Source of the DNA: Comamonadaceae bacterium
GTDB taxonomy: Bacteria; Pseudomonadota; Gammaproteobacteria; Burkholderiales; Burkholderiaceae
Reading direction: 5' to 3'
Length of the DNA: 25,258 bases
NCBI GenBank assembly: GCA_947505915.1
Contig: CANNNH010000008.1
Coordinates: 1-25,258 of the forward strand
Each line of letters starts with the position of its first letter. Within the stretch, counting starts at the first letter, position 1. This document shows positions 4,608-25,258 of this stretch, piece by piece. The notes under the pieces were generated by a model. That model saw nothing but the letters and a program-made list of their open reading frames with translations. It searched no databases and was not told where the DNA came from. Both the position numbers and the translations under genes were made by a program.

Positions 4608-7600
4608 TTAGCCTGTAACAGGCGCTGTGGACGGCTCACGCCGTACCTTGAAGGCGGCCGCGTACATGGCCGGCAAGGCCAGCAGGGTGAGCACGGTGGC
4701 AACGACCAGGCCACCCATGATGCAGACGGCCATCGGTCCCCAGAAAACGCTGCGCGACAGCGGAATCATGGCCAGAACGGCGGCAGCGGCTGTCAGCACA
4801 ATGGGGCGCAAACGCCCCACGGCCGACTCCACAATCGCATCCCATGCGGGCAAGCCGCGCAAGCGCTCCTGCTCAATCTGGTCGATCAGGATCACCGAGT
4901 TGCGCTGAATCATGCCCATCAGGGCAATCACCCCGAGCAAGGCCACAAAGCCGAAGGGCTTGCCGAAGATCAGCAGCCCGGCTGCCGCACCCGCAATGCC
5001 CAGCGGGCCGGTGATGAACACCAGCAAAGACCGGCTGAAGCTGCGCAGTTGCAGCATCAACAAGGTGAAGGTCAGGAACAACATGACAGGCACGCCCGCC
5101 ACGATGGAGTCGGAGCCCTTGCTGCTTTGCTCTACTGCGCCGGCGACGTCGATGTTGTAACCCGAAAAGCCCTTGGCCAGCCACTGCTTTTCCAGAGCCT
5201 TGAGGGCTGGCATGAGTTCGGCGGTGACGGTTGCGCCTTGCAAACCCTCCACGATGTCGCTTTGCACCGTGATGGCAAAGTCACGGTTCTGACGCCACAT
5301 GATGCCGGGCTCCCAGGCAAATACCGGCCTGGCGATTTGCACCAGCGGTATGGAGCGGCCAGACGTTGTCGGCACATAGGCGCTGAACAAGTCGGTGATG
5401 GCGTCGCGCTCGGCCTTGGGCTGGCGCAACACCACCTCAATCAGCTTGTCACCTTCCCGTAACTGGCCCACCGTGCTGCCCGTCAGGGCAATGCTCAGAG
5501 CTTGCGCGATCGACTGGCTGCTGACACCCAGCGCCCGCGCCTTGGCCTGGTCCACCTCCAGGCGGATGGTCTTGACATACTCGTTCCAGTTGTCGTTCAC
5601 GCCCCGGGTGTTGCTGCTGGCCTGCATCAACTTCTTGACTTCGTCAGCGCGCTCACGCAAGACGACCGGGTCTGCGCCCACCACCCGGAACTGCACCGGG
5701 TAAGCCACCGGCGGCCCGTTGGGCAGCAACTTGACGCGCCCGCGCACCTCGGGAAACTCACTGGCCAGGATCGCGGGTAGCTTGACGCGCAGCGACTCAC
5801 GCACTTTCAGGTCTTTGGGCAAGACCATTAGCTGCGACACATTGCTTTGCGGAAAAACCTGGTCCAGCGGCAGGTAAAAACGCGGCACACCCGAGCCCAC
5901 CCAGGTGCTCACAGAGCTCACGCCAGGCTCTTGCATCAGACGCTGTTCAAAGCGCATGGCAACTTGCTCGCTGGCCGCGAAAGAGGCACCTTCGGGCAGC
6001 CAGATCTCCACCAAAATTTCGGGGCGGCTCGAATCCGGGAAAAACTGCTGCTGCACCCGTCCCATACCGACAATGCCCAGCACAAAAATCAGCACGGTCA
6101 CGCCAATGGTGGTCCAGCGGTACTCGACGCACCAGCTCACGCAGCGCCGGAACTGGTTGTAAAACGGCGTGTCGAAATGCTCTTCATGCACCGCCTCGCC
6201 CGGAGCCACCGGCTTGACCTTGAGCAGCCAGGTGCCCAGATAGGGCACAAAAAATACGGAAGCAAACCAACTGAGCACCAGCGCAATCACGGTCACCGCA
6301 AAGATGGCGTAGGTGTATTCGCCGGTGACCGACTTGGCCAGCCCGATTGGCAAAAAGCCGGCCGCCGTGATGAGCGTGCCCGTCAGCATGGGCATGGCCG
6401 TGACTTCGTAGGCAAAGGTGGCCGCGCGAACCTTGTCGTAGCCCTCCTCCATTTTGCGCACCATCATTTCTACCGCAATGATGGCGTCGTCCACCAGCAA
6501 ACCCAGCGCAATGATGAGCGAGCCCAGCGAAATTTTGTGCAGGCCGATGTTCCAGTAATCCATCGCCAGAAAAGTCACCGCCAGCACCAGCGGAATGGTG
6601 ATACCCACCACCAGGCCCGGACGCATGTCAACGTAGTAGCGCCTCCACAGCGGCAGCGCTGCAGCGTTGTCGCGCTTGTGCAGGCCCAGGCTGATGAAAC
6701 TCACTGCCAGCACAATCAGCACCGCCTCGATCAACACGCTGATGAACTCATTGACAGAACTCGTCACTGCCTTGGGCTGGTCTTGCAACTGCACCAGCTT
6801 GACACCCGCCGGCAGACCGGCTTCCAGGCCTGCGCGCATCTGGGTCAGTGCTTTGCCCAGGCGGACGATGTCACCGCCCTTGGCCATAGAGACACCCAGT
6901 GCCACGACTTCACGGCCCTGGTGATGCACCTTGATCGATGGCGGATCGGCGTAGCCGCGGTAAACGTTGGCAATCTCGCCCAAGCGCGTCTGGCTGCCTG
7001 AGGCGCCGCGCACCGGCATGGCCTTGATCTGCTCGACCGCCTGAAACTGCCCGCCCACGCGAATCTGCAGCACGTCTTGAGGCGTTTGCAAAGAGCCTGC
7101 GAACTCCACCGCGTTTTGCTGGCCGAGTTGGTTGAGAACCTGGTTCATGTCCAGCCCGAGCTGAACCTGGGCCTTGGAAATGTCGATGAATATTTTTTCG
7201 TCCTGCGCACCAAAAATCTCGACCTTGGCCACATCTTTCACCCGCAGCAGCTGCTGACGCAGCTGGTCGGCAATCACTTTGACTTCGGCGTAATTGAAGC
7301 CGTCAGACTCCAGCGCGTAAATGATGCCGTAGACATCACCGAACTCGTCGTTGAAAAACGGGCCCTGAATACCGGCGGGCAAGGTGGGGCGGATGTCGCC
7401 GATTTTTTTGCGCACGGTGTACCAAACATTGGCCACCTCGCTGGGCTTGGAATAGTCCTTGAGCTCCATGATGATCTGCGACTCACCTGGTTTGGAATAG
7501 CTGCGGATCTTGTCGGCGTAAGGCACCTCTTGCAAGCTGCGCTCCAGCTTGGCCGTGACCTGCTCGGCCATTTGCTGCGTGGTGGCGCCAGGCCACAAGG

Positions 7601-7805
7601 TGCGCACCACCATGGCCCGGAAGGTGAAAGGCGGATCTTCGTCCTGACCCAATTGGAAATAGGTGAAGCCCCCCATCAACATCAGCACCACCAACAGGTA
7701 GCGCGTCAGCGGCCGGTGGTCCAGCGCCCAACGGGACAGGTTGAAACCGCTGGAGGCCTCTGGCTTGGCGGCGGGCGCGGCGTCGCGATGCGTTTCGTCG
7801 TTCAT
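4608..7805 (-). CDS. RND-family efflux pump inner-membrane transporter (HAE1/AcrB-like)
   Basis: Proton-driven RND permease of 1065 aa, the usual size for multidrug (hydrophobe/amphiphile) pumps, acting in the inner membrane in a tripartite complex. The first transmembrane helix is about 33-52 (RYLLVVLMLMGGFTYFQLG), followed by the periplasmic porter motif GQDEDPPFTFR. Transmembrane helix 4 carries the proton-relay pair D439-D440 in LGLLVDDAIIAVEMM. In helix 10 the position of AcrB Lys940 is Arg968 (GMIQRNSVILID). Two porter-domain repeats are evident. The N-terminal 30 residues are polar and cytosolic. It starts 7 bp after the membrane-fusion gene, with GTGAGG as ribosome site. The DEDPP style recalls TriC-like pumps. 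The substrate cannot be read from sequence, and a heavy-metal (CzcA) pump is less likely given the HAE-type D-D pair. Confidence 0.93.
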   Translation of the reverse strand: MNDETHRDAAPAAKPEASSGFNLSRWALDHRPLTRYLLVVLMLMGGFTYFQLGQDEDPPFTFRAMVVRTLWPGATTQQMAEQVTAKLERSLQEVPYADKIRSYSKPGESQIIMELKDYSKPSEVANVWYTVRKKIGDIRPTLPAGIQGPFFNDEFGDVYGIIYALESDGFNYAEVKVIADQLRQQLLRVKDVAKVEIFGAQDEKIFIDISKAQVQLGLDMNQVLNQLGQQNAVEFAGSLQTPQDVLQIRVGGQFQAVEQIKAMPVRGASGSQTRLGEIANVYRGYADPPSIKVHHQGREVVALGVSMAKGGDIVRLGKALTQMRAGLEAGLPAGVKLVQLQDQPKAVTSSVNEFISVLIEAVLIVLAVSFISLGLHKRDNAAALPLWRRYYVDMRPGLVVGITIPLVLAVTFLAMDYWNIGLHKISLGSLIIALGLLVDDAIIAVEMMVRKMEEGYDKVRAATFAYEVTAMPMLTGTLITAAGFLPIGLAKSVTGEYTYAIFAVTVIALVLSWFASVFFVPYLGTWLLKVKPVAPGEAVHEEHFDTPFYNQFRRCVSWCVEYRWTTIGVTVLIFVLGIVGMGRVQQQFFPDSSRPEILVEIWLPEGASFAASEQVAMRFEQRLMQEPGVSSVSTWVGSGVPRFYLPLDQVFPQSNVSQLMVLPKDLKVRESLRVKLPAILASEFPEVRGRVKLLPNGPPVAYPVQFRVVGADPVVLRERADEVKKLMQASSNTRGVNDNWNEYVKTIRLEVDQAKARALGVSSQSIAQALSIALTGSTVGQLREGDKLIEVVLRQPKAERDAITDLFSAYVPTTSGRSIPLVQIARPVFAWEPGIMWRQNRDFAITVQSDIVEGLQGATVTAELMPALKALEKQWLAKGFSGYNIDVAGAVEQSSKGSDSIVAGVPVMLFLTFTLLMLQLRSFSRSLLVFITGPLGIAGAAAGLLIFGKPFGFVALLGVIALMGMIQRNSVILIDQIEQERLRGLPAWDAIVESAVGRLRPIVLTAAAAVLAMIPLSRSVFWGPMAVCIMGGLVVATVLTLLALPAMYAAAFKVRREPSTAPVTG

Positions 7806-7812
7806 GCCGGCC

Positions 7813-8970
7813 TCACTTCGCAGCAGGTGTTGTCACAGCGGCTGCAGGCGCAACAGCCGTCGGCATGCCAGCCGTCGGCGTGGCCGCTGCCGGCGGCTGG
7901 TACAACCTGACTTTCTGGCCAGGCGTGAGCACATGCACGCCCGCACTCACCACCTGCATGCCCGGCGTCAGCCCGGAACTGATCACAGCCATGTTGACGT
8001 CGGCATTGGCCACCTGAACATCCTGCGCCCGCACCGTCATGCTGGCCGGCTCCAGCACCCAGACAGAAATGCTGGTGCCCTCCTTGCGCAGCGCGGCAAT
8101 CGGCAGCTTGATGATGGGTTGACCCTGTGCCAATTCAGCCGGCTGGCCCGACAGACTGACGGTCACGGTAGAGCCCAGGGCGGGCGGCTTCTGGCCGGCG
8201 CTCAAGCTGGCCTTCACTTGGTAAGTGCGGGTGGCCGGGTCAGCACTGGCCGCCACCTCGCGCACCTTGCCTTCTAAGGGCGTGTTCAGCGGCCACACCA
8301 GCACCTTCACCGGCATACCCACACGCATGGCAGCCAGGCGGGAATCAGGCACCGTAAAGACCACATCGCGTGCGCCATCGGCCGCAATTTTGAACACCGT
8401 CATGCCGGCGCTGACCACCTGGCCGGCCTCGGCCTCCACGGCGGTGACCACCCCGGCCACATCAGACGCCAGCACCGCATAGCCCGACTGGTTGGACTGC
8501 GAAGCCAGTTGTGCCTGGGCCTGCTCGAGCTGCGCCTGTGCCGACTTGAGCGTGGCATCGCGCCGGTCCAACTCGGCGCGGCTGATGAAGTTTTGTGCCA
8601 GCAAGTCTTTGTAGCGTGCCAAGTCTGCCGCTGCCAGGTCGCGGTTGGTCTGCGCGGCGACGGTTTGCGCACGGGCCGCGTCTGCGGCCAGTTTGTAGTC
8701 CTGCGGGTCCAGCCGGGCCAGCACCTGACCGGCCTTGACCGACTGCCCCAGCTCGGCCTGGCGCTGAATCATTTTGCCGCCCACCCGAAAAGCCAGCCGT
8801 GACTCAACCTGCGCCCGCACCTCGCCGGTGTATTCACTGTTGGCAGCATAAAAGTCCGCGCCCACCGTGATGGTTTTCACAGCCCGGATAGGTTCTTCGA
8901 CCACCGCCGGCTTGGAGCAGCCCAGCAAAAAAACCGACCCGATGGCGGCAACACTGATGATTCTTTTCAT
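7813..8970 (-). CDS. RND efflux periplasmic adaptor (membrane-fusion lipoprotein)
   Basis: Adaptor of 385 aa that links the RND pump to an outer-membrane channel. The N terminus MKRIISVAAIGSVFLLGC is a lipoprotein signal with lipobox LLGC, so Cys18 would be lipidated. Next come a beta-barrel/biotinyl-lipoyl half (GEVRAQVESRLAFRVGGKM, GQSVKAGQVLARLDPQDY), an alpha-helical hairpin of about 100-170 (Ala/Gln/Arg-rich heptads), the second lipoyl half (SDVAGVVTAVEAEAGQVVSAG) and beta-barrel strands. The last 30 residues are a Pro/Ala/Thr-rich tail. It is first in a two-gene operon with the pump. No TolC-type gene is near, so the outer-membrane partner must come from elsewhere. It diverges from hpnC, with a shared upstream region that contains an operator-like dyad. 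Confidence 0.93.
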   Translation of the reverse strand: MKRIISVAAIGSVFLLGCSKPAVVEEPIRAVKTITVGADFYAANSEYTGEVRAQVESRLAFRVGGKMIQRQAELGQSVKAGQVLARLDPQDYKLAADAARAQTVAAQTNRDLAAADLARYKDLLAQNFISRAELDRRDATLKSAQAQLEQAQAQLASQSNQSGYAVLASDVAGVVTAVEAEAGQVVSAGMTVFKIAADGARDVVFTVPDSRLAAMRVGMPVKVLVWPLNTPLEGKVREVAASADPATRTYQVKASLSAGQKPPALGSTVTVSLSGQPAELAQGQPIIKLPIAALRKEGTSISVWVLEPASMTVRAQDVQVANADVNMAVISSGLTPGMQVVSAGVHVLTPGQKVRLYQPPAAATPTAGMPTAVAPAAAVTTPAAK

Positions 8971-13611: not shown

Positions 13612-14715
13612 ATGAGCTTTTCCAAAGAACCCGAATTCAGCCACGGCAAGGTACCCGCCAGCGGCGCCAGTACCGGCGTGCTGTATTGCAATCTGGGCAC
13701 CCCCGACGCACCCACCGCACCGGCCCTGCGCCGTTACCTGGCCGAATTTTTAAGCGACCAGCGCGTGGTCGAGATTCCCCGCCCCATCTGGTGGCTGATC
13801 CTGCACGGCATCATCTTGCGCCTGCGCCCCAAAAAGTCAGCCGCCAAGTACGCCAGTATCTGGACGGCCGAAGGCTCGCCCCTGAAAGTCTGGACCGACA
13901 AGCAGTCCCAGTTGCTCGGCCAAGCCCTGCAATCGCGCGGTCACCACGTGGCCACACGCTACGCCATGCGCTACGGCAACCCGTCTATCGCTTCCCAGCT
14001 CGAGGTCTTCAAAGACCAGGGCATCACGCGCGTGCTCATCGTGCCGGCCTACCCCCAGTACAGCGCCACCACCACTGCCAGCTTGTTTGACGCGGTCTAC
14101 ACCTGGGCCGCCAAAGTCCGGCGCCTGCCCGAATTTCGCTTCATCAACCATTACCACGACGACGACGGCTACATCTCTGCGCTGGCCACCCGGGTGCGCG
14201 CCCACTGGGACTTGCACGGCCAGGCCGAGCAACTGGTGATGAGCTTTCATGGCGTGCCCCAGCGTACGCTGGAGCTGGGTGACCCCTACCACTGCGAGTG
14301 CTACAAAACCGCCCGCCTGTTGGCCGAATCACTGGGGCTGACCAAAGACCGCTACACGGTGACGTTTCAGTCCCGCTTCGGCAAAGCCAAATGGCTGCAG
14401 CCCTACACCGAACCCACGCTGGTGAGCATGGCCGGGGCCGGTGTCAAAAAGGTCGACGTTATTTGCCCGGGATTTACCGGCGACTGCCTGGAAACGCTGG
14501 AAGAAATTAACGACGAAGCCCGCGAAGCCTTTATGCACGCCGGCGGCGAGAGTTTTCACTACATCGCCTGCCTGAACGACAGCCCCGAGTGGGCGCTAGG
14601 CCTGGCCAGTATTTGCGAGCAGCATCTCAGCGGCTGGCCCAGCCAGGCGGCGCCGGATGCCCCAGCGCTGGAGCAAAGCCGGGCCAACGCACTGGCCCAA
14701 GGCGCAGCCAACTAA
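13612..14715 (+). CDS. hemH: ferrochelatase
   Basis: Inserts Fe2+ into protoporphyrin IX, the last step of protoheme synthesis; membrane-associated or cytosolic, 367 aa. Recognisable segments are GVLYCNLGTPDAPTAPALRRYL near the N terminus, the catalytic His213 in VMSFHGVPQRTLELGDPYH, and the acidic pocket PGFTGDCLETLEEI that contains the conserved catalytic Glu. The family-typical CLNDSPEW is near the C terminus. The start at ATG 13612 is preceded by GGAG at 13598-13601. The 21-bp gap to the divergent HAD gene means its promoter must overlap the HAD coding region. Its TAA overlaps the convergent sensor kinase TAG by 4 bp. Confidence 0.97.
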   Translation: MSFSKEPEFSHGKVPASGASTGVLYCNLGTPDAPTAPALRRYLAEFLSDQRVVEIPRPIWWLILHGIILRLRPKKSAAKYASIWTAEGSPLKVWTDKQSQLLGQALQSRGHHVATRYAMRYGNPSIASQLEVFKDQGITRVLIVPAYPQYSATTTASLFDAVYTWAAKVRRLPEFRFINHYHDDDGYISALATRVRAHWDLHGQAEQLVMSFHGVPQRTLELGDPYHCECYKTARLLAESLGLTKDRYTVTFQSRFGKAKWLQPYTEPTLVSMAGAGVKKVDVICPGFTGDCLETLEEINDEAREAFMHAGGESFHYIACLNDSPEWALGLASICEQHLSGWPSQAAPDAPALEQSRANALAQGAAN

Positions 14716-16115
14716 ACCATACCGGCCGGCGGCCACTGCAACCGAATGCGTGTGCCGCGCCCGTTGGCACAGGGACTGGTCAAGGACAGAGCTGCACCGT
14801 GCTGGCGGGCGATTTCCTGCACGATGGCCAAACCCAGGCCGCTGCCGCGCAAGGCGGCCGCGTCGGCGCGGTAAAAGCGCTCAAACACATGAGGCTGGTG
14901 GCGCGCAGCAATGCCGACACCCGCGTCCTCAACTTCCAGCCAGCCCGCGCCCACCCGCACCGTCACCGCCACGCCGCCGCCGGCATGCACCAGCGCGTTG
15001 TCCACCAGGTTGCGCAGGGCCTCCTGCACCAGCAAGGGCATGCCCAGCACCTGGCTCACAGCAACGGTGGTTTCAAAACCCAGGTCATGCTGATGGGTCT
15101 GCGCCTGGTGCCACATGGACTGCGTTACCTCGCGCGCCAGCGCTACCAGCGCCACCTTTTGCGGCACCTCCATATCGGGGGCGTGTTCGGCCCGGGTGAG
15201 CGCCAGCAGTTGCTCTGTCAGGTGCACCGCCTTGTCGGTGGTGTGCACAGCCGCAAGCACCGCCGCCTTAGCTTGCTGCTCCGGAATCTGGCGCTCGGCC
15301 AGTGCCAGCTGCGTTTTGAGCACAGTCAGCGGCGTGCGCAACTGGTGCGCAGCGTTGTCTAAAAAGCGTTTGCGGATGTCAATCAAACGGCCCAGCCGCT
15401 GCACATAGCTGTTGAGCGTGTCAATCAAGGGTTGCAGCTCACGCGTGTTGTAGGCCGGCGCGATCGCCGAATCGTCTGACTCATCACGCGCGGCCAGTTG
15501 CAGCCGAAAAGCCTCCAGCGGCCGCATCGCCACATGAATACCCCAACCCACCAGGCCCATGGTCACCAGCAGCAGCAAACCCTGAATCGCCAGCGTGTCA
15601 CGCAAGATGTGCTGGGTCAGCAACTGCCGAGCCTCCAGGGTCTCGGCCACCCGCACCGTGATCAGCTTGGTGCCCGGCGCCTGCCCGGGTGTGCCGGGGC
15701 TGTCCACCAGCACGTGGCGCAAGCTGGTCAGGCGCACCGGTTGGCCGCGGAGCAAAGCGTCTTCAAAACTCACCAGCGAAAAGAACTGCACCTCTTGCGA
15801 CAGCGCCGCCGGCGAAGGCAGTTCCGAGTCACCAGCCAAGGTGAGGCCAGCTTCGTCTTCAATTTTGTAAAACAGGCGCGAGCCGATGTGGTTTTCAAAC
15901 AAGTAACCCGCCGCCCGCAGCACGTCCACGCGCAAGGTCTGGTTTTCCAGGCGTATTTCTTCGGCCAGCGTTCGCGCTGCCAGGTACAAAGAGCGGTCAT
16001 AAGCCTGGTTGGCCGACTCCACAGCGCGCCCGTAGGACACATAAGCACCCACCCCGATGAGCAGAAACAAAGGCAGCAAAATCAGCAGCAGCAAGCGCTG
16101 GCGCAAAGAGTTCAT
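14712..16115 (-). CDS. tctE: sensor histidine kinase TctE
   Basis: Membrane sensor of 467 aa for the TctE/TctD two-component system that controls tricarboxylate uptake. Transmembrane helix 1 is about 7-27 (RLLLLILLPLFLLIGVGAY). A periplasmic sensor of about 130 residues follows, of the kind seen in TctE/2CSK kinases. Helix 2 is about 170-190 (AIQGLLLLVTMGLVGWGIHV), followed by a HAMP-like linker. The dimerisation helix has phospho-acceptor His257 in AAHQLRTPLT. ATP-binding boxes are LRNLVDNALVHAGG (N), EDAGVGI (G1) and RGSGLGLAIVQEIARQHG (G2). It lies 25 bp after tctD on the same strand, so the two probably form an operon, divergent from the tctCBA transporter they should regulate. The symbol rests on context plus sequence. 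Confidence 0.9.
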   Translation of the reverse strand: MNSLRQRLLLLILLPLFLLIGVGAYVSYGRAVESANQAYDRSLYLAARTLAEEIRLENQTLRVDVLRAAGYLFENHIGSRLFYKIEDEAGLTLAGDSELPSPAALSQEVQFFSLVSFEDALLRGQPVRLTSLRHVLVDSPGTPGQAPGTKLITVRVAETLEARQLLTQHILRDTLAIQGLLLLVTMGLVGWGIHVAMRPLEAFRLQLAARDESDDSAIAPAYNTRELQPLIDTLNSYVQRLGRLIDIRKRFLDNAAHQLRTPLTVLKTQLALAERQIPEQQAKAAVLAAVHTTDKAVHLTEQLLALTRAEHAPDMEVPQKVALVALAREVTQSMWHQAQTHQHDLGFETTVAVSQVLGMPLLVQEALRNLVDNALVHAGGGVAVTVRVGAGWLEVEDAGVGIAARHQPHVFERFYRADAAALRGSGLGLAIVQEIARQHGAALSLTSPCANGRGTRIRLQWPPAGMV

Positions 16116-16140
16116 GGCGGGCCCGGCCTGGTGATGACGC

Positions 16141-16899
16141 TCATGCCGTGTCTTTGTCGCTGAGCATGTAACCCAGACCGCGCAAGGTGTTGATGCGCAG
16201 GCGCCGGGCCGGCGCAGCGCCGGTCGGCGGCAAAGGGGTTTCGATTTTTTTGCGCAAGCGGTAGATCAACACCTCCACCGCGTCCAACTCGGCCGGCGCG
16301 TCTGAAAACACCCGAGCATGCAACTGCTCTTTGCTCACCACGCGATGGGCAGACTCCAGCAGCGTTTTTAGCGCCGCGGTCTCACGCGGGGTCAATGCCA
16401 GCGGCTGTTCATGCAACAAAAAGTGCTGGTCATCCCCATCCCACAGCAGCGGGCCAACGCCCCACTGCGTCCACTGCATTTGCCGGGGCCGGCGCAGCAA
16501 AGCCTGCACACGCGCTTCAAACTCACTGAGCTCGAAGGGTTTGGGCAGGTAGTCGTCGGCGCCCACGTTCAAACCCAGCACCCGGTCGGCCACGCTGGCA
16601 CGTGCGGTCAAAATCATCACCGGCACCGCATCGGCCCGCTGGCGCAGCGCCTGCAGCACCGACAGACCATCGCGCCCCGGCAGGTTCAAGTCCAACAACA
16701 CCAACTTAAAACGGTGGCCCGCCTGCAACTGGGCATCGGCCGACTCGCCGTCTGGCGCAAACGCCACCTGCAAACCCAGCTGGCGCAAAGCGGTGCCCAG
16801 CCAGAGCGAGAGCTCGGGCGTGTCTTCTACCAATAAAACGGGGGCACTAGGGGTTATCACTGAATCAAATTGAAAGGCGTTTGACAGCTTGGCCGCCAT
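16141..16899 (-). CDS. tctD: response regulator TctD (OmpR/PhoB type)
   Basis: DNA-binding activator paired with TctE. The receiver domain begins PVLLVEDTPELSLWLG. The phospho-acceptor Asp70 is in LLDLNLPGRDG, the conserved Thr/Ala switch in MILTARAS, and the Lys in YLPKPFEL. The stretch SVADRVLGLNVGADDYLPKP is very like enterobacterial TctD. A winged-helix output domain follows and ends LRINTLRGLGYML. Start choice is uncertain. The ATG at 16899-16897 gives 252 aa, but with about 20 extra residues before the receiver and no ribosome site. The GTG at 16860-16858 gives 239 aa with the usual short N terminus, and would free the TTGACA at 16881 to lie in an intergenic promoter. I list the longest ATG form but consider the GTG form equally likely. 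It diverges from tctC. Confidence 0.88.
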   Translation of the reverse strand: MAAKLSNAFQFDSVITPSAPVLLVEDTPELSLWLGTALRQLGLQVAFAPDGESADAQLQAGHRFKLVLLDLNLPGRDGLSVLQALRQRADAVPVMILTARASVADRVLGLNVGADDYLPKPFELSEFEARVQALLRRPRQMQWTQWGVGPLLWDGDDQHFLLHEQPLALTPRETAALKTLLESAHRVVSKEQLHARVFSDAPAELDAVEVLIYRLRKKIETPLPPTGAAPARRLRINTLRGLGYMLSDKDTA

Positions 16900-16908
16900 A
16901 TTTAAAGC
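16881..16908 (+). promoter_or_regulatory. possible tctCBA promoter with a perfect -35 and poor -10
   Basis: TTGACA at 16881-16886 is a perfect sigma-70 -35 hexamer. The best following -10 is only TAAAGC at 16903-16908 (16-bp spacer). A weak -10 would fit a promoter that needs an activator such as phosphorylated TctD. It overlaps the tctD N terminus if that gene starts at the ATG 16899. Motif reading only. Confidence 0.3.
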
Positions 16909-16976
16909 AAACTGCTCAGGTCTTGGCGCAACATGCCCCAAGCCCACCAACGATCATTTTCACTCAGGAGACAAAC

Positions 16977-17951
16977 ATGACCATTTCCAAACGCGATTTC
17001 TTGTCCATGGGCGGCGCATTGGGCGCCGGCCTGGCACTGCCGGCATGGGCTCAAGCCAAGCCATTGTTTGACACCATCAACATGTTTGTACCTGCAGCCC
17101 CCGGCGGCGGCTGGGACGGCACAGCCCGCTCGATTGAGCGCGCAGCCAAGGCCAGCGGCCTGGTCGGCAACTTCCAATTTGAAAACGTAGGCGGCGCCGG
17201 CGGCATGATCGGCCTGCCACGCTTTGTGAACCAGCGCAAAGGTCAGGGCAACAGCCTGATGGTCGGCGGCTCGGTGATGGTGGGCGCAGGCATCACCAAC
17301 AAAAGCCCGGTCACCATGCGCAATGTCGTGCCCGTGGCCCGCTTGACCGAAGAGTCCAGCGTGATCGTGGTGCCCGCCGGCGGCAAAATCAAAACCTGGA
17401 ACGAACTGGTGGCCGCTCTCAAGGCCAACCCCAAGGCCGTGTCCGTGGCCGGCGGCAGCGCTGGCGGCACTGACCACATCGTGCTGGGCCTGATGATCAA
17501 AGAACTGGGCCGCAACCCGCGTGAAGCCGCCTACGTTGCCTTTGCAGGCGGCGGTCCGGCCAACGCCGCTATTTTGGGCAACCAGGTCACTGCCGGCGTA
17601 TCGGGTTACTCTGAATTTGAAGACCAGATCAAGGCCGGCCGCATGATTCCGCTGGCCGTCTCCGGCAACATCCGCATACCCGGTGTGAATGTGCCCACCA
17701 TGCGCGAACTCGGCCTGAACGTGGCGGTGGCCAACTGGCGCGGCGTGTTTGCCGCCCCCGGCGTGACCACGGCCCAGCGCGACAAGCTGGTCGAGTTGAT
17801 GAGCAAGTTGAACCAATCCACCGCCTGGCAACAAGAGCTGGTCACCCGCAAGTGGACCGGCGTGTACCTTGCTGACCTGCCTTTCGAGCGCGAAATCAAC
17901 AAAGACATCGCCGACACCGAAGGCGTGCTGAAAGACCTGGGTCTGGCATGA
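16977..17951 (+). CDS. tctC: tripartite tricarboxylate transporter substrate-binding protein TctC
   Basis: Periplasmic solute-binding protein (Bug family), 324 aa, which captures a carboxylate for the TctAB membrane pair. The start at ATG 16977 has a strong AGGAGA ribosome site at 16967-16972. The signal peptide is MTISKRDFLSMGGALGAGLA followed by a cleavage site after AWAQA. The KRDFL start is Tat-like, with KR instead of RR. The mature part shows family segments: NMFVPAAPGGGWDGTARSIE, NVGGAGGMIGLPRFVNQ, the hydrophobic-Gly stretch SVAGGSAGGTDHIV, and WRGVFAAPGVT. It is the first gene of tctCBA and overlaps tctB by 4 bp (ATGA). It diverges from tctDE. The ligand (citrate, tricarballylate or another acid) cannot be read from sequence, because Bug proteins are a large expanded family. 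Confidence 0.94.
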   Translation: MTISKRDFLSMGGALGAGLALPAWAQAKPLFDTINMFVPAAPGGGWDGTARSIERAAKASGLVGNFQFENVGGAGGMIGLPRFVNQRKGQGNSLMVGGSVMVGAGITNKSPVTMRNVVPVARLTEESSVIVVPAGGKIKTWNELVAALKANPKAVSVAGGSAGGTDHIVLGLMIKELGRNPREAAYVAFAGGGPANAAILGNQVTAGVSGYSEFEDQIKAGRMIPLAVSGNIRIPGVNVPTMRELGLNVAVANWRGVFAAPGVTTAQRDKLVELMSKLNQSTAWQQELVTRKWTGVYLADLPFEREINKDIADTEGVLKDLGLA

Positions 17952-18412
17952 CGCCTTTTCGACTTGCCCTGTGCCTTTTAGCGCTGGGGCTGGTCGGGGC
18001 CTGGCAGGTGACGCTGATCCCCGAGTCGCCTATTCAGATGCCCGTGGGGCCCATCCTCACCCCTGCGGTGGTGGTGGGCCTGTTGCTGGTGATTGCGCTG
18101 CTGTATGGCCTGAGCGCCTGGCGCGGCCGTCAGCTCGATGCCGTGCTGGGCGACGACGGGCAGCCCCTGCCAGGCGCCAACCGGCGCATGCTCATGCTGC
18201 TGGGCGGCGGCGCTGCCTTCGTGCTGCTGGCCGTGCCTTTGGGCTTTGTCATCCCGGCCACCTTGTGCGGCATGGGGGTAGCGCGCGCTTTTGACGAACC
18301 GCTGGGCTGGCGCTCAGCTTTGGTGTGCGGCACGATTGCCCTGCTCTTCTGGATTTTATTTGCCCAGGTGTTGGGCGTCGGGCTCGGGCCCGCAGTGGCC
18401 TGGCCTTTGTGA
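17948..18412 (+). CDS. tctB: tripartite tricarboxylate transporter small membrane subunit TctB
   Basis: Small inner-membrane subunit of 154 aa with four predicted helices: about 5-20 ([17 protein letters not shown]), 35-57 ([19 protein letters not shown]), 80-100 ([22 protein letters not shown]) and 120-150. A polar loop carries [15 protein letters not shown]. The ATG overlaps the tctC stop (ATGA), so the two are translationally coupled. TctB is weakly conserved in sequence, so the call depends on size, topology and position between tctC and tctA. Confidence 0.9.
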
Positions 18413-18434
18413 CAGGCTGTCTGAAAGTTTCCCC

Positions 18435-19937
18435 ATGAATGCCTTTGACTCCTTGATGGGCGGCTTTGCCAACGCCTTGCAGCCCATGACGCTGATGTAC
18501 GGCTTCATCGGTTGCTTCGTCGGCACTCTGGTCGGCGTGCTGCCCGGCATCGGTCCGGCCCTGACCATTGCCCTGCTGCTACCGCTCACCTACCACGTGC
18601 CGGCCACCGGCATGTTTGTCATGTTTGCCGGCATCTACTACGGCGCGGCCTATGGCGGCTCCACCACCTCCATCTTGCTCAACACACCGGGCGAATCTGC
18701 TTCGGTGGTGACAGCGCTGGAGGGCAACAAAATGGCCCGCCGCGGACGCGCCGGCCCGGCCCTGGCGACTGCCGCCATCGGCAGCTTTGTAGCCGGCACC
18801 ATCGGCACGCTGGCACTGACATTTTTTGCTCCCCTGGTGGTGGAGGCAGCGCTGGCCTTTGGCCCGGCCGAGTACTTCAGCCTGATGATTTTGTCTCTGG
18901 TGGCCGTGTCCGCCGTGCTGGGCAACTCGGTGCTGCGCGGCATTGCCAGCCTGACAGCCGGCTTGCTGTTTGGCCTGGTCGGCCTGGATTTGCAAACCGG
19001 CCAGCCCCGCTTTACCTTTGGGCAGACCGAGCTGCTCGACGGCATCGAAGTCACCATTGCCGCCGTCGGTCTGTTTGCCGTAGGCGAAGCGCTTTACCTG
19101 GCCTGGCAGGGCAAAGAAACCAAGGCCGGCGAAGTCATGAAGGTCACCGGCAGCCTGTGGCTCAGCGCTCAGGACTGGAGCCGCTCCTGGAAAGCCTGGC
19201 TGCGCGGCGCTATGTTTGGCTTTCCCATTGGCGCCATGCCCGCAGGCGGCGCTGAGCTGCCCACCCTGCTGTCTTACTACACCGAGAAAAAACTCAGCAA
19301 GCACCCCGAAGAATTCGGCCACGGCGCCATCGAAGGCGTGGCCGGCCCCGAAGCCGCCAACAACGCCGCCGCCGCCGGTGTGCTGATGCCGCTGCTCACA
19401 CTGGGCATACCCACTTCTGCCACAGCCGCCATCATGCTGTCGGCCTTTCAGGGCTACGGCATCCAAACCGGCCCCACCCTGTTCAGCCAACAAGGCTCCC
19501 TGGTCTGGACCCTGATTGCCAGCCTGTACATCGGCAACGTTATTTTGCTGGTGCTCAACTTGCCGCTGGTCGGCCTGTGGGTCAAGCTGCTGAAAATTCC
19601 GCCACCCTGGCTGTACGCCGGCATCATCATCATCTCAACGGCCGGCGTCTACGGCGCGGGCAACTCGGTGTTCAACGTCGGCTTGCTGTACGTCTTCGGC
19701 CTGATCGGCTTTGCCATGCGGCGCTTTGACTTCCCGGCCGCGCCGCTGATCGTCGGCCTGATTCTGGCGCCCATGGCAGAACAATCCATGCGCCAGGCCC
19801 TGACCATCAGCATGGGCGAATGGTCCACCTTTGTCACCCGGCCGCTATCGGCCAGCCTGATGGCCATCTCGGTGATTTTGTTGATTGCCCCGCCGCTGGT
19901 GCGCCGCTGGCAACAAAAACGAGTGGCTACGGCCTAG
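18435..19937 (+). CDS. tctA: tripartite tricarboxylate transporter large permease TctA
   Basis: Large membrane subunit of the sodium/proton-coupled TTT transporter, 500 aa with about 11-12 helices. The N-terminal family sequence is [33 protein letters not shown] (broken here by positions 18-50), with the conserved GxLPGIGP. The [20 protein letters not shown] motif is at about 73-92. A second conserved loop, [17 protein letters not shown], is in the middle. The start at ATG 18435, 22 bp after tctB, gives the family N terminus; the longer open frame upstream only re-reads tctB. It ends 14 bp before the hslR start, so hslR may be on the same transcript. Confidence 0.96.
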
Positions 19938-20356: not shown

Positions 20357-20420
20357 GCTCTGTTACCCTCCCCCTACATTCGGCTTGCCACGGAAACACA
20401 ACGCCAAGGTCATCAGCACT

Positions 20421-20972
20421 ATGTCCACAGACACAATGCCTTTGCTGCCATCGCCCGGCCCCACCCGCGCGGACAAGCTGTTCATGCTCTTTTTAGTGCT
20501 GGTGCTACTGGGTGTGGTGGCCATCGGCCGCATGATGTACAACGTCGGCCTGAAGAACGAAATCAGCAAACAAAACACCGCCGACTTGGTGCAATGGCTG
20601 GCGCAAGCCGGCAGCCACAGATTTGACAGCGGATTTGAGCCTGCGCAGTGCGCCGGCGGCGATGCCAACGCCGGTAACACCTGGGCTGCCTGCCTGCCCC
20701 GCTTGCTGGCAGACGGCGGCCCCCTGGCCGGGCTGCGCAACCCCTTTACCCAGAAAACCCCGTTTTTTGTGGCCCGATGCGAGCCGGGCAGCGCAGCCCT
20801 GGCCGGCGCGCTGGTCATTGAAAAACTCACGCCCGGGCAACCGGGCGCTGCCCAAGCGTTTTACCCCTCGCCCTTGGGCGGGGACGACCCAATTAACAAA
20901 AAAATGCAGCTGCGCTTGAGCGCCTGCGACCATGGCGGCTACGCAGGCATCTCCACAGAGGTGACTTTTTGA
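20421..20972 (+). CDS. uncharacterised single-span membrane protein, coupled to the channel gene
   Basis: I do not recognise this 183-aa protein. Residues 1-18 are a polar cytosolic tail, about 20-38 (LFMLFLVLVLLGVVAIGR) is one membrane helix, and the rest (about 145 residues) is a predicted periplasmic domain with four cysteines, in PAQCAGGD, AACLPRLL, ARCEPGS and SACDHGG. These could form two disulfides. The fold class (short tail, one helix, extracellular domain) resembles minor pilin-like or accessory subunits, but no prepilin cleavage site is seen. The start at ATG 20421 follows a weak AAGG; a TTG 12 codons upstream is less likely. Its stop codon TGA overlaps the TTG start of the channel gene (TTGA), so the two are translationally coupled and the product may act with the channel. 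That is inference. Confidence 0.75.
   Translation: MSTDTMPLLPSPGPTRADKLFMLFLVLVLLGVVAIGRMMYNVGLKNEISKQNTADLVQWLAQAGSHRFDSGFEPAQCAGGDANAGNTWAACLPRLLADGGPLAGLRNPFTQKTPFFVARCEPGSAALAGALVIEKLTPGQPGAAQAFYPSPLGGDDPINKKMQLRLSACDHGGYAGISTEVTF
20957..20971 (+). promoter_or_regulatory. strong Shine-Dalgarno sequence that supports a TTG start
   Basis: AGAGGTGA at 20957-20964 is followed 4 nt later by TTG (20969-20971). The next in-frame ATG (21005) has no ribosome site. The TTG overlaps the upstream stop as TTGA, a coupling arrangement. Confidence 0.65.
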
Positions 20973-22600
20973 AGCCCCACCAACCCAAACCACAGCTCGT
21001 TTCTATGGAAGCGCCCAGTGCCAGCATCCCCTCAGATCTGCCAATGCGCCAATGGCTGTACGCCTGGTTGCTAGACACCAAGATCGCCGGCAACTACCAG
21101 CAGAGCCTAGACCGTTGGATCGCCTTGCTGATTGTGGCCAACCTGCTGGCTTTGCTGTTCGAGCACATACCGGCGGTCTACCTGCCTTACCAGAGCTGGT
21201 TTCACCTGTTTGATGTTGCCTCCGTCGCCGTCTTCAGCGCCGAATACCTGCTGCGCCTTTACCTGGCCCCTGAAGACCCGGAGTTCAAAAACCGCGGCTC
21301 ACCGCGCCTGCGCTTCATGCGCAGCCCCTTTGGCCTCATTGACCTGCTGGCCATTGCGCCTTTTTACCTGCAAGCCTTCGTTCCGGTGGACTTGCGTGCG
21401 CTGCGGTTTTTGCGCTTGCTGCGGATTCTCAAACTGTTTCGCGTGCTCATCCCTGCCTGGCAGGAGTTCAAACGCCTGAACCAGGGCCGCAGCTTCCGCC
21501 AAAAAATCCATGCCCTGGTCTACCCCAGCGAGTTCGGCGGGAACCTGCACCACATATTTGACACCTTCATCATGGTCTGTGTGCTGATTTCGGTGATCGG
21601 TATCGTCATTGAGTCCGTGCAGAGCATCGACCACGTGATGCACTTGGAGTTCATCGTATTGGACACTGTGATGGTGGCGATTTTTTCGCTTGAATACTGC
21701 ACCCGCCTTTACTGCTGTGTCGAGCAGCCCGGCTTTCAAAAAGCCATGAGCGGCCGGTGGCGACATGCCAAGTCGCCCTCTTTGCTGGTGGACCTGCTGG
21801 CCATCTTGCCGTTTTTCCTGGAAGCCTTTTTGCACCACCTGTTTGACCTGCGCTTTTTGCGGGTGTTCCGGCTGATACGCCTGCTCAAACTCACCCGCTA
21901 CACCGGCGCCACCGCCACACTGACCAAAGTGCTGGCCCGCGAGTGGCCGGTGATGAGCGCTTCCATCTTCATCATGCTCTTGATGGTGGTGCTGACGGCC
22001 ACCCTGGGCTACTTGTTTGAGCACCAAGCCCAACCCGAAAAGTTTGAAAACATTCCGCAGTCCATTTACTGGGCGGTGATCACGCTGGCCTCGGTCGGTT
22101 ATGGCGACATTTCACCGGTCACCCCCATGGGCCGGATGATGACCATCATCCTGGCCCTCATGGGCATCGGTATCTTTGCCATTCCAGCGGCGCTCTTGTC
22201 ATCGGCCTTCACCGACCAGCTGCGCATTGAGCGCGAGAACCTGCGCAACGAGCTCTATGAAATGCTGGAAGACGGCCGGCTGAGCGAACAAGAAATTGAG
22301 CAGGTGCAAGCCGAGGCCAAGCGACTGCACCTGTCGCAGCAAGATGTTGACCAACTGATAGAAAAAGCCAGGCGCGAACGTGAGCTCATGGAAGATGTCT
22401 CCGGGCTGCCCCTGCATAAAATTGCCGGCAAATCAGAGCACGCCCTGGAGCACTATAAGTCCTTGCTCAGCCAGATCCGCCAGTTAGGTATATTGACCGA
22501 CGCTCAGAAGTTCGAAGAACTGGCCCGCAGCAGCGACCGGCTCACAGACACGGAGCTGGCCCTGTGGCACAAAATTCAGGGCAATAAGGGTAAGGAATAG
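20969..22600 (+). CDS. K+-channel-like protein with two tandem voltage-sensor domains and one pore
   Basis: Inner-membrane ion channel protein of 543 aa. The first S1-S4 unit is at about 49-160: S1 WIALLIVANLLALLF, S2 with FSAEYLLRLY, S3 with Asp125 in LIDLLAIAPF, and S4 with R143, R146, R149, R152, K155, R158 at every third position. No pore follows it. A second S1-S4 unit is at about 193-312: S2 FSLEYCTRLY, S3 Asp275 in LVDLLAILPF, and S4 with R295, R298, R301, R304, K307, R310. Then come S5 (about 325-345), the selectivity filter SVGYGD (375-380) and S6 (about 390-410). The C-terminal 130 residues are charged, helical and cytosolic (ELYEMLEDGRLSEQEIEQVQ). Typical bacterial Kv channels have one sensor and about 230-290 residues. 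The filter predicts K+ selectivity. The TTG start is supported by its ribosome site. It may work with the coupled upstream protein. Confidence 0.9.
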   Translation: MKPHQPKPQLVSMEAPSASIPSDLPMRQWLYAWLLDTKIAGNYQQSLDRWIALLIVANLLALLFEHIPAVYLPYQSWFHLFDVASVAVFSAEYLLRLYLAPEDPEFKNRGSPRLRFMRSPFGLIDLLAIAPFYLQAFVPVDLRALRFLRLLRILKLFRVLIPAWQEFKRLNQGRSFRQKIHALVYPSEFGGNLHHIFDTFIMVCVLISVIGIVIESVQSIDHVMHLEFIVLDTVMVAIFSLEYCTRLYCCVEQPGFQKAMSGRWRHAKSPSLLVDLLAILPFFLEAFLHHLFDLRFLRVFRLIRLLKLTRYTGATATLTKVLAREWPVMSASIFIMLLMVVLTATLGYLFEHQAQPEKFENIPQSIYWAVITLASVGYGDISPVTPMGRMMTIILALMGIGIFAIPAALLSSAFTDQLRIERENLRNELYEMLEDGRLSEQEIEQVQAEAKRLHLSQQDVDQLIEKARRERELMEDVSGLPLHKIAGKSEHALEHYKSLLSQIRQLGILTDAQKFEELARSSDRLTDTELALWHKIQGNKGKE

Positions 22601-22633: not shown

Positions 22634-23200
22634 TCACTTCACCGTGACGGCGTCCACCAGACGGTAATACAGGCCATAGGGGTCGTCTTTGAGCACCATC
22701 AAGCGGCCCTCCACCACCACCGCGTCCTGGCTGTACTTGACGGGCGTTTTCAGGCGCACTTCCATCATGCTTTCAGGCCCGCCCGGCAGGCAAAAATTGC
22801 AGCTCAAAGGCACCGCAGAGAGCAACATGCGGGTGTGCTTTTCGCCGGGTTCGACCGGCATCATGAAACCCTGAAGCCGCTGTGTCTTGTCGTTCAGCCC
22901 CAACTGGCTGGCAGTGAACAGCGGCAGGCTGCGCTTTTTCACCACCTGGGTTTTCACATCGGCCAGCACCGACCAGGGCAACACGTCGGCGCGTGGCACC
23001 AGCGGCGCAATCGGGCTGTTGGCCCCGTGCACGCCAGCGCCCTTGCCGGCCGGCAAATCAATGCTGCCCGGCAACATGGGCGCCGTCTGGGCCACCACGG
23101 GTGCCGACAGACAGGCCGCCAGCCCCAGTACAGCCAGGGCGCGCACCAGCGGCCGTTCGGCCAGCTTTGAAACAGCGAAACGCGAGTGGGTCGGGTTCAT
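22634..23200 (-). CDS. DUF3299 periplasmic protein of a metal-type ABC cluster
   Basis: Secreted protein of 188 aa. The signal peptide covers about 1-38 (RALAVLGLAACLSAPVVAQ). The mature part has the DUF3299 core: a beta-rich domain with QGFMMPVEPGEKHTRMLLS and the cysteine motif LSCNFCLPGGPESMMEV (C134, C137), ending in YYRLVDAVTVK. The start is the ATG at 23200-23198 with AGGA 9 nt ahead; an in-frame TTG ten codons earlier has none. DUF3299 genes accompany MacB/FtsX-type ABC transporters in zinc-starvation clusters such as Pseudomonas PA4063-PA4066, and the same neighbours are found here. A role in metal binding or in folding around metal uptake is likely but not shown. It is the last gene of the minus-strand operon. 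Confidence 0.85.
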   Translation of the reverse strand: MNPTHSRFAVSKLAERPLVRALAVLGLAACLSAPVVAQTAPMLPGSIDLPAGKGAGVHGANSPIAPLVPRADVLPWSVLADVKTQVVKKRSLPLFTASQLGLNDKTQRLQGFMMPVEPGEKHTRMLLSAVPLSCNFCLPGGPESMMEVRLKTPVKYSQDAVVVEGRLMVLKDDPYGLYYRLVDAVTVK

Positions 23201-23237
23201 GCGTTGGATTCCTTGTTTGGCTTGATTCAAGCGCGCT

Positions 23238-23633
23238 TCAGTGCGCGTGCTTCATACCGCAGTATTTGCCAACGGCCAAGCCTTTGCAAGCGGCCTGCAA
23301 CTGCTTGGTGCAAACATCTGGTTTTTGGCCCGACTCCAGGCATTTGGCAGCCGCCTCGTGGGCTACGGCCATGGCGCGGTGGCGCTGTATATCTTCTTTA
23401 ACTTCTTTGTCGCTGTGCTGGGCATGCGCCACAGACAACACGGCGCTGAGCGCCAGGATGGCAAGGCCGTAGAAGATGGATCCCCGCTTTCGCGAGGATG
23501 ACGAAAAACGCGAGGATGACGAAACCAATCCGTCATTCCTGCGCAGAGCCTGCCCTCGACCTGATCGGGGGCAGGAATCCATCCCCGAGTCCAAGGCCAC
23601 AGCCGGCACTGGTTTCACAGAAAAATGTATCAT
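23238..23633 (-). CDS. small secreted four-cysteine protein, function unknown
   Basis: Unrecognised protein of 131 aa from the ATG at 23633-23631, which has a strong GAGGTGA ribosome site that overlaps the permease stop. A signal-peptide core is at about 53-71 (IFYGLAILALSAVLSVAHA), with cleavage before Gln72. The mature 60 residues are helical and carry C98, C108, C116 and C125 and end in CGMKHAH. This suggests two disulfides or a metal site, with His129 and His131 as extra ligands. Residues 17-53 are encoded by an intergenic-type repeat, which gives a very long Ser/Arg-rich segment (SSSSRFSSSSRKR) ahead of the hydrophobic core. An alternative TTG start at 23528 (AGGA 8 nt ahead, within the repeat) would give a 96-aa precursor with a normal leader. 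It sits between the permease and DUF3299 genes, so probably serves the same system. Confidence 0.75.
   Translation of the reverse strand: MIHFSVKPVPAVALDSGMDSCPRSGRGQALRRNDGLVSSSSRFSSSSRKRGSIFYGLAILALSAVLSVAHAQHSDKEVKEDIQRHRAMAVAHEAAAKCLESGQKPDVCTKQLQAACKGLAVGKYCGMKHAH
23475..23583. repeat. intergenic-type repeat with inverted ends inside a coding region
   Basis: The ends GATGGATCCCCGC (23475-23487) and GCAGGAATCCATC (23571-23583) are inverted copies matching at 11 of 13 positions. Internally, CGCGAGGATGACGAAA occurs twice (23491-23506 and 23509-23524), an 18-bp period. The left end is itself a dyad, ATCC..GCTTTCGC..GGAT, and GTCATTCCTGCG starts the right half. The style matches short dispersed repeats of the ATTCC-n-GGAAT class known as dRS3 in Neisseria. 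I cannot count genome copies from this window. Confidence 0.65.
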
Positions 23634-23637
23634 CAAT

Positions 23638-24840
23638 TCACCTCGATTGAAGTAGTTCCAAAACACTGACCCGATACGCCTCCCAGGTGGGCAACAGGGC
23701 CGAAGCCACGGCCACTCCCAGCGCCAGCGCCGGTACCGCCAGCAACGCCACCGGCCAGTTCAGCGCGGCCAGCGAGATCGACTTGTCTACATCCAGCGCC
23801 ACGGCCAGCAAAGCCGCCACGCCCTGCCCCAGGGCCAGGCCCAGCAGCATGGCCAGCAAGGCCAGCCATAAAGCCTCACACCATAGCAGAGCCGCCAGCT
23901 GGCGCGGCGCCGCGCCCAGCATGCGCAGCAAAGCCAGGTCGGCGCGGCGTTCGCGCACAGCGCTCCAGAGCGCAATGAAAACACTCACCCCGGCCGTCAG
24001 CAACAACACGGCGGCAAAGGCCCGCAGCACATCGGCACCAATGCCGATCAGCCCGAGCAGGCGAGATATTTCGACAGCTGGTGCTGCCGCCTGCATGTCG
24101 GTGGTGGTGTTGATAAAGCGCGGAAAAGTCACCGCCGCCAGCGGGCTGCGGTACTGAATCAACGCCAGTGTGACCTCGCGCTCTTCTTCCAGAATCTTCT
24201 GGTCTGCGGCGTCCAGCGCAGTGTCTTTCTCGTGCACGCGCCAGACCGACTCTGTCGGCGTCAAAATCAAACGGTCCATCACCAAGCCACTGGGGGCCAG
24301 CACGCCCGTCACGGTGTAAGGCGTCTGGCCGTGGGCATGACCGCCGCCGCCCAGGCCGTGGCTGCCCGCAAAACTGTCACCCACGCGCAAGCCCGTGTCG
24401 CGCGCCACTCTGGCGCCCAGCACCGCCTGCATGGGCGTCTGCCACAGCGCACCGCTGGCCATCACCCCGGCGTAGTGGCTCAGGTAATCCGGCGTGGTGC
24501 CAATGATGCGGTAGCCCTTGAAACTGTCGCCCATGCTGATTGGTATCAGCTTGGCCACCTGCGGGTTGGCTTGCAGCGCCTGCACGTCAGCCAGCGGCAC
24601 ATTGCCGGTGGGCGTGTCGATCTGAAACACGCCAGACAAAATCAGTTGCAGCGGGCTGCCCTTAGCGCCCACCACCACGTCAATGCCGGCCAGGTCCCGC
24701 GCAAAGGCCTGCTGAATTTGATGGTTGACCAGCAGCACCAGCGTGATGGACGCCAGCCCCAGCGACAGCAGCAGCAAGTTAAGCGCCGCTGCCAACGGTC
24801 TGGACCACAAAAACTGCCAGGCCCAGCGCAGTGTCTTCAT
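23638..24840 (-). CDS. ABC transporter permease, MacB/FtsX type, with a His-rich loop
   Basis: Inner-membrane permease of 400 aa. Helix 1 is about 18-38 ([20 protein letters not shown]). A large periplasmic domain of about 40-270 begins with the MacB-like [20 protein letters not shown]. Three C-terminal FtsX helices follow ([63 protein letters not shown]). A His-rich loop with H161, H168 and H170 ([12 protein letters not shown]) lies in the periplasmic domain and could bind metal. Its ATG overlaps the ATPase stop (ATGA), and its TGA stop forms part of the ribosome site of the next gene, so the operon is tightly coupled. Similarity to the PA4065 class of zinc-starvation permeases is recalled from family knowledge. 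LolC/E-like lipoprotein release is the alternative, but the neighbours favour metals. Confidence 0.87.
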
Positions 24841-25258
24841 GCGGCCACTCCGGCTCTCTGGGGCAGCGCCAGGTTCAGCACACTGACCGGGCCGGCCTGC
24901 GTGAAAAACTGCAGCAGCCGCGCATCATGACTGGCCACCACCAGCGTGGCGCCCTGCTTAGCGGCGACCTGCGCCAGCAACTGCGCGGCCTGCGCGGCGG
25001 CAGCGTCGTCCAGGCTGGCCGTGGGCTCGTCAGCCAAGATCACCTGCGGCTGAAGCAGCACCGCCCGCGCCAGCGCCACGCGCTGTGCCTGGCCCCCCGA
25101 CAACTGCGCCGGCTTGCGGCGCGCCAGCTCGGCCACGTCCAGCGCCGCCAGCGCACCGGCAATGCGGCCGGCGTCTTCAGGCTGGCCTGCGGCCCACTGC
25201 GCCAGCGACAGGTTGTCATGCACGCTGAGCGCCGGGCTCAGGTGCAGTTTTTGCGGCA
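24837..25258 (-). CDS. ABC transporter ATP-binding protein, C-terminal part (5' end outside window)
   Basis: Partial ATPase open to the window end. The visible frame starts inside the Q-loop region ([18 protein letters not shown]), then the signature [17 protein letters not shown], Walker [13 protein letters not shown] and the H-loop [13 protein letters not shown]. Walker A lies beyond base 25258. The type is LolD/MacB-like, matching the FtsX permease that follows with a 4-bp overlap. It energises the transporter in the cytoplasm. A GTG at 25223 is an internal codon (V in LSVHDN) and not a start. The gene upstream of this one, outside the window, would show whether a DUF2796/ZrgA-like zinc-binding protein begins the operon. 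Confidence 0.93.

Follow-up and report, generated by a model that had tools for sequence, protein, structure and literature searches.

The window analysed here, a stretch of 25,258 nucleotides, contains a two-gene locus on its forward strand in which a small gene overlaps the start of a gene for a predicted potassium channel with two S1-S4 voltage-sensor domains (VSD1 and VSD2) ahead of a single pore module. The features of this locus are as follows:

20385..20972, forward strand: partner gene, 195 or 183 amino acids with a start at TTG 20385 or ATG 20421, respectively; overlaps the start of the channel gene
20969..22600, forward strand: tandem-sensor K+ channel gene, 543 amino acids, with a TTG start that shares 4 nt with the stop of the upstream gene; an alternative ATG start lies at 21005
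21104..21454, forward strand: VSD1, residues 46-162, S1-S4 with D82, F89, E92, D125 and a six-charge S4
21389..21454, forward strand: S4 of VSD1, residues 141-162, with R143/146/149/152, K155 and R158; the modelled helix continues to residue 170
21455..21544, forward strand: VSD1-VSD2 linker, residues 163-192, with no pore after it; a similar motif is found in three single-sensor paralogues
21554..21907, forward strand: VSD2, residues 196-313, with the identical charge ladder R295-R310
21941..22222, forward strand: S5-pore-S6, residues 325-418, with the filter SVGYGD at 22091-22108
22223..22597, forward strand: C-terminus, residues 419-543, predicted to be cytoplasmic and helical

Homology searches confirmed that the open reading frame at 20969-22600 encodes a predicted K+ channel with two S1-S4 units and a single pore, as an initial sequence-only reading of this DNA had proposed. 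Two stretches of the protein match the Pfam family Ion_trans, residues 1-184 do so by themselves (1.5e-15), and VSD1 aligns with the remainder of the channel at 47 of 124 identical positions (38%; blastp E 1e-24) with a Smith-Waterman score of 207, compared to 30.7 +/- 5.3 and a maximum of 59 in 1000 shuffles. The spacing of about 150 residues between the units that had been given in that reading was reproduced (152 residues from R143 to R295), as was the placement of the pore, since S5, P-loop and S6 are present after the second unit alone (Ion_trans_2, matched once at residues 335-415, 8.4e-19) and VSD1 leads into the linker of residues 163-192 and then into VSD2. Searched on its own against PDB sequences, VSD1 found a bacterial sodium channel as its best match (4bgn, 3.1e-9) as well as KCNQ2 (1.8e-6), and KCNQ4 aligns with residues 193-423 of the channel (3.7e-25). 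The C-terminus has a weak, sub-threshold similarity to TerB (0.017). A protein from a Rhodoferax MAG is 90% identical to the channel across residues 7-288.

Conservation was assessed in an alignment of 121 rows, composed of the query and the best 120 of 4618 homologues passing the E-value threshold. The six S4 charges in both of the units (R143, R146, R149, R152, K155 and R158; R295, R298, R301, R304, K307 and R310) are invariant in 121/121 rows, and the same is true for the paired positions E92/E242, D125/D275, R96/R246 and F132/F282 and for the filter SVGYGD at residues 375-380, so that the S4 residues and the filter had been named correctly from the start. In a smaller table of 17 rows (the window and 16 loci; one row ends before S4 of VSD2), D82 and F89 of VSD1 and D232 and F239 of VSD2 are likewise invariant; by comparison with Shaker, D82 and F89 are placed at the positions of the S2 outer acid and the charge-transfer aromatic. 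The S4 ladders and the acidic and aromatic pairs listed above recur in this table as well. The mean frequency of the most common residue across the 121 rows is 0.795 for VSD1, 0.818 for VSD2 and 0.941 for the pore, and the values for S4 are nearly equal in the two sensors (0.941 for VSD1 vs 0.964 for VSD2). Even a divergent tandem channel (L113:907-2496, forward strand) has both six-charge ladders intact. As judged from these alignments, both sensors possess the full set of voltage-sensing residues examined.

Rates of substitution (Nei-Gojobori), which are rough because dS was often close to saturation, gave dN/dS values of 0.016-0.201 for VSD1 (10/12 pairs with a value), 0.029-0.324 for VSD2 (9/12 pairs, only roughly like VSD1) and 0-0.073 for the pore (8/12 pairs). 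At the sequence level, VSD1 bears the mark of purifying selection. AlphaFold2, run on an 18-row alignment, modelled VSD1 as four helices (residues 44-64, 75-102, 120-137 and 142-170; block pLDDT 72-87), in line with the earlier expectation that residues 49-160 form a four-helix sensor, and placed a short helix (176-184) between the end of S4 of VSD1 and S1 of VSD2. The model of the channel as a whole is modest, with a mean pLDDT of 71.5 and values below 50 for residues 365-385 around the filter, and a fold search with the whole channel was dominated by VSD2-pore matches and therefore says little about VSD1.

Several features place this protein among voltage-gated potassium (Kv) channels, namely a filter of the (T/S)VGYG type between S5 and S6 (here SVGYGD) and a pore-attached VSD2 with R295-R310 at every third residue together with E242 and D275, all of them present in 121/121 rows. 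It departs from the six-helix Kv subunit with one VSD per pore module in that two VSDs precede the pore module. Compared to Kv channels such as KCNQ/Kv7, Kv4 and Shaker or bacterial representatives, of which KvAP is an example, it therefore has an extra complete VSD in front, and it additionally has an upstream partner gene and a C-terminal helical domain of its own. Two-pore channels (TPC) and the 4-domain Nav/Cav channels also contain multiple VSDs per polypeptide, but there every VSD has a pore module of its own behind it, whereas the tandem channel has two VSDs and one pore module, with VSD1 preceding another sensor instead of a pore. Hv1 and the voltage-sensing phosphatases resemble VSD1 in having a VSD without a pore directly after it; unlike Hv1, VSD1 is bacterial, is fused ahead of a VSD plus pore, and lacks the Asp and Trp of Hv1. 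The NCBIfam model for hyperpolarization-activated voltage-gated K+ channels (NF040645) was matched with 62.1 bits, below its curated cut-off of 300. We assign the predicted protein to the Kv kind of channel, new in its extra sensor and in the small partner gene linked to it. No sensor-sensor-pore channel was found among 60 of 248 PDB sequence matches listed, and no description of this plan was found in the listed part of the open-licence literature, which agrees with the initial statement that no characterised bacterial channel of this plan was known.

The sequence-only reading had considered neither the partner gene nor the single-sensor paralogues described below. The partner protein consists of a long N-terminal helix, predicted to lie in the membrane, and a beta domain in which four Cys are invariant. 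Its structure model is confident and shows a single long helix and a small beta domain that together look loosely pilin-like, and a nearly invariant Asp (D18) sits close to the helix start. The protein of the window has no match in Pfam, NCBIfam or the PDB sequences (among 18 family members, 1 matched an unrelated Pfam family at 0.039), no profile relation to the channel was found, and a Foldseek search returned nothing under E 0.001, with the best hit, to an unrelated fold, at E 0.051. Prepilins have a Gly/Ala(-1) cleavage site and a Glu at +5 ahead of the helix. The likeness to type IVb pilins is a weak fold match, and this prepilin cleavage motif is not conserved in the partner family, which lacks Glu as well as a conserved Gly. 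KCNE and similar proteins are known accessory subunits of Kv channels that span the membrane once, and the partner resembles them in being small, single-span and channel-associated, here by gene order only; it differs from KCNE by its larger Cys-bearing beta domain, its setting in a bacterial gene pair, and the lack of a sequence relation to anything named.

A partner homologue lies directly upstream of the channel in 18/18 distinct loci that encode a close tandem channel but in 0/4 other loci, comprising three loci of single-sensor paralogues and one divergent tandem. Among 61 relatives the partner is found in 6, exactly the 6 with a tandem channel; in a second genus (that of G406) it is found in 9 of 61 genomes, all within the 10 with a tandem channel; and among 300 genomes of the order it is found in 1, directly upstream of the tandem channel. 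When the two sets of 61 genomes are pooled, every one of the 15/122 genomes with a partner also has the tandem channel (15 with both, 1 with the channel only, 0 with the partner only, 106 with neither; Fisher p 2.6e-18, although the genomes are not independent). Among related genomes such linkage can reflect shared descent, and the divergent tandem (G763, L113) lacks a partner, which shows that the tandem form also occurs on its own. Judged from these genome comparisons, the upstream gene is nevertheless tied to the tandem form.

Of the 61 relatives, 6 carry the tandem channel, and all 6 belong to the nearest genus, which is represented by 37 genomes (the copy of G031 ends at a contig end). 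A sample of 399 genomes from the order yielded 3 carriers in two further families (G252; G380 and G406), and in the genus to which G406 belongs the channel was found in 10 of 61 genomes. In addition, 321 genomes drawn from the class and 249 from the phylum were searched (with E-value limits of 1e-20 and 1e-15, respectively, for listed matches and at most 4 or 5 candidates scored per genome), and no listed match covers both sensors and the pore. We also inspected 20 regions with long reading frames, picked from the more numerous ones that searches of order, class and phylum had given, and found no frame with two whole VSDs; 9 of them have two pieces totalling about one VSD, and L144 was seen as a 311-aa frame only. 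The sensor-sensor-pore plan is thus a patchy family within Burkholderiales, and the samples of class and phylum gave no case beyond that order.

Phylogenies of the individual modules bear on how the second sensor arose. In a 61-row tree built from VSD2 and the pore, one clade of 23 rows (support 100/99) unites 18 tandem channels, the split channel of L002 and four single-sensor relatives that share their C-terminus, with the divergent tandem L099 (the same gene as L113) at its base. In a tree of VSDs (102 rows), the 26 VSD1s form a single group (99/98), and a split of 92/90 (unstarred) separates the 26 VSD1s, 26 VSD2s and 9 single VSDs from 41 single VSDs. Five long-branched single VSDs group with the VSD1s at weak support (82/39); without them, a quick tree keeps the other 56 rows as one group with 92.8, a value short of showing the grouping. 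Based on these groupings, an origin of VSD1 by duplication within one gene is favoured, though not proven, over the fusion of two adjacent channel genes. Neighbouring single-sensor channel genes do occur in L048 and L051 and ahead of the tandem channel in L114; the latter locus (5473-8506, forward strand) has three genes in a row, a single-sensor channel, a partner and a tandem channel. The second sensor of L099 scores higher with the VSD1 profile (113.7 bits) than with the VSD2 profile (88.8 bits), and an independent doubling of the sensor is therefore possible in that lineage.

Three single-sensor paralogues (L106:15822-17009, forward strand; L107:1166-2338, forward strand; L108:1544-2761, reverse strand) share the C-terminus of the tandem channels. 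They have no VSD1, no partner was found nearby, and they keep the motif NKGR(T/S)FRQK...TPTSG.LHH, which in the tandem proteins lies in the linker after S4 of VSD1 and was not seen in single-sensor channels outside the clade among the sequences compared. These three proteins are perhaps natural deletions of VSD1 that retain an apparent relic of the linker; L043, with its long branch, matches this pattern less clearly. The most economical history is a single gain of VSD1, probably by intragenic duplication, followed by later losses. At L002 (5702-7381, forward strand), a single in-frame stop divides a tandem channel between VSD1 and VSD2-pore, which may stem from a sequencing error, from decay or from a natural split.

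We propose, with a probability of roughly 0.6, that the locus is a two-gene unit for a voltage-gated K+ channel of the Kv type in which VSD2 drives the pore, VSD1 is an auxiliary working sensor and the partner is an accessory subunit. Each subunit would have the order VSD1-VSD2-pore, and four subunits, with eight sensors between them, would assemble one pore that VSD2 opens via the usual S4-S5 link as in other Kv channels. Voltage would also move VSD1, which may bias VSD2 through the helical linker running from its S4 to the pre-S1 helix of VSD2 and thereby alter the threshold or the steepness of opening. The partner would be a single-span subunit acting on the sensors, most likely on VSD1, with its beta domain placed outside the inner membrane as suggested by its layout and its Cys pairs.

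That VSD1 probably still senses voltage, as had been surmised initially from its intact ladder, is suggested by the conservation of that ladder, yet other roles for this domain have to be weighed. It could have ceased to be a sensor in practice and serve as a scaffold or assembly module for the partner or the tetramer, with its charges kept for folding, given that the partner's presence and absence largely track VSD1 and that, as is well established, counter-charges and S4 arginines pair with one another in the VSD fold. If VSD1 were purely a scaffold, some of its S4 charges should have been lost, as in non-sensing VSD-like domains, but all six, the outer ones included, persist throughout the 121 rows, and we consider this role unlikely. 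The tie of the partner to the tandem form, its absence from the loci of single-sensor paralogues and its conserved four-Cys domain could alternatively suggest that VSD1 addresses the partner and not the pore, the protein being a channel fused to a module that signals voltage to the periplasm. This seems improbable to us, since the divergent tandem does without a partner and the loci compared, most of which have about 1.5 kb of flank, showed no additional neighbouring gene common to the families.

The sequence-only reading is supported in proposing a sensor-sensor-pore K+ channel with a probably sensing VSD1 but had also raised the idea of VSD1 as an ion path for protons or cations in its own right, like Hv1, and this part was not supported. 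VSD1 is, as in Hv1, a VSD without its own pore, and its S1 Glu65 falls at the position of Hv1 E119 if this Glu is used to align the two S1 helices. As described in the literature, the marks of Hv1 are an Asp/Glu filter in S1, which in human Hv1 is D112, 7 residues before E119 (PMC8804609), and an S4 Trp in the motif RxWRxxR (PMC8804609, PMC10377628) that is totally conserved in eukaryotic Hv1 (PMC10377628). In VSD1, however, the residue 7 before Glu65 is Asn58 and not Asp/Glu in 17/17 rows (with the site equated by spacing only), and S4 of the window reads RALRFLR, with Leu in place of Trp and this Leu145 invariant in 18 rows. The six charges filling S4 should moreover plug the gating pore. 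A review further reports that nothing points to typical Hv1-type channels among prokaryotes and states that known prokaryotic voltage sensors all come with a selective pore (PMC10377628). The residues of VSD1 thus disfavour an Hv1-like proton path, and we regard any independent ion path through this domain as highly improbable.

Going beyond the proposed two-gene unit with an auxiliary VSD1, one could tentatively imagine an eight-sensor K+ channel whose VSD1s are a second voltage input coupled to the co-encoded, pilin-like extracytoplasmic subunit, a possibility that we would not bet on. If it were true, voltage would be read twice and one of the readings passed to, or set by, an extracytoplasmic protein, yielding both a two-input voltage-gated channel and a bacterial Kv channel with a dedicated accessory subunit; we know of no characterised two-input voltage-gated channel of such a kind. 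The close paralogues that have VSD2, pore and C-terminus but no VSD1 or nearby partner offer a possible natural control, and comparing them with the tandem channel would reveal what a second voltage sensor contributes and bear on whether accessory subunits exist for bacterial Kv channels.

Elsewhere in the window, a two-component system composed of a histidine kinase with a 2CSK_N domain and a response regulator is encoded near a TctA tricarboxylate transporter gene (14712-19937). The reverse strand at 22634-25223 carries two small genes without a Pfam match (22634-23230 and 23238-23666) and, beyond them, genes for an FtsX/MacB-like permease and then an ABC ATPase near the window end; the first three of these genes have homologues in like order downstream of the channel in L021.
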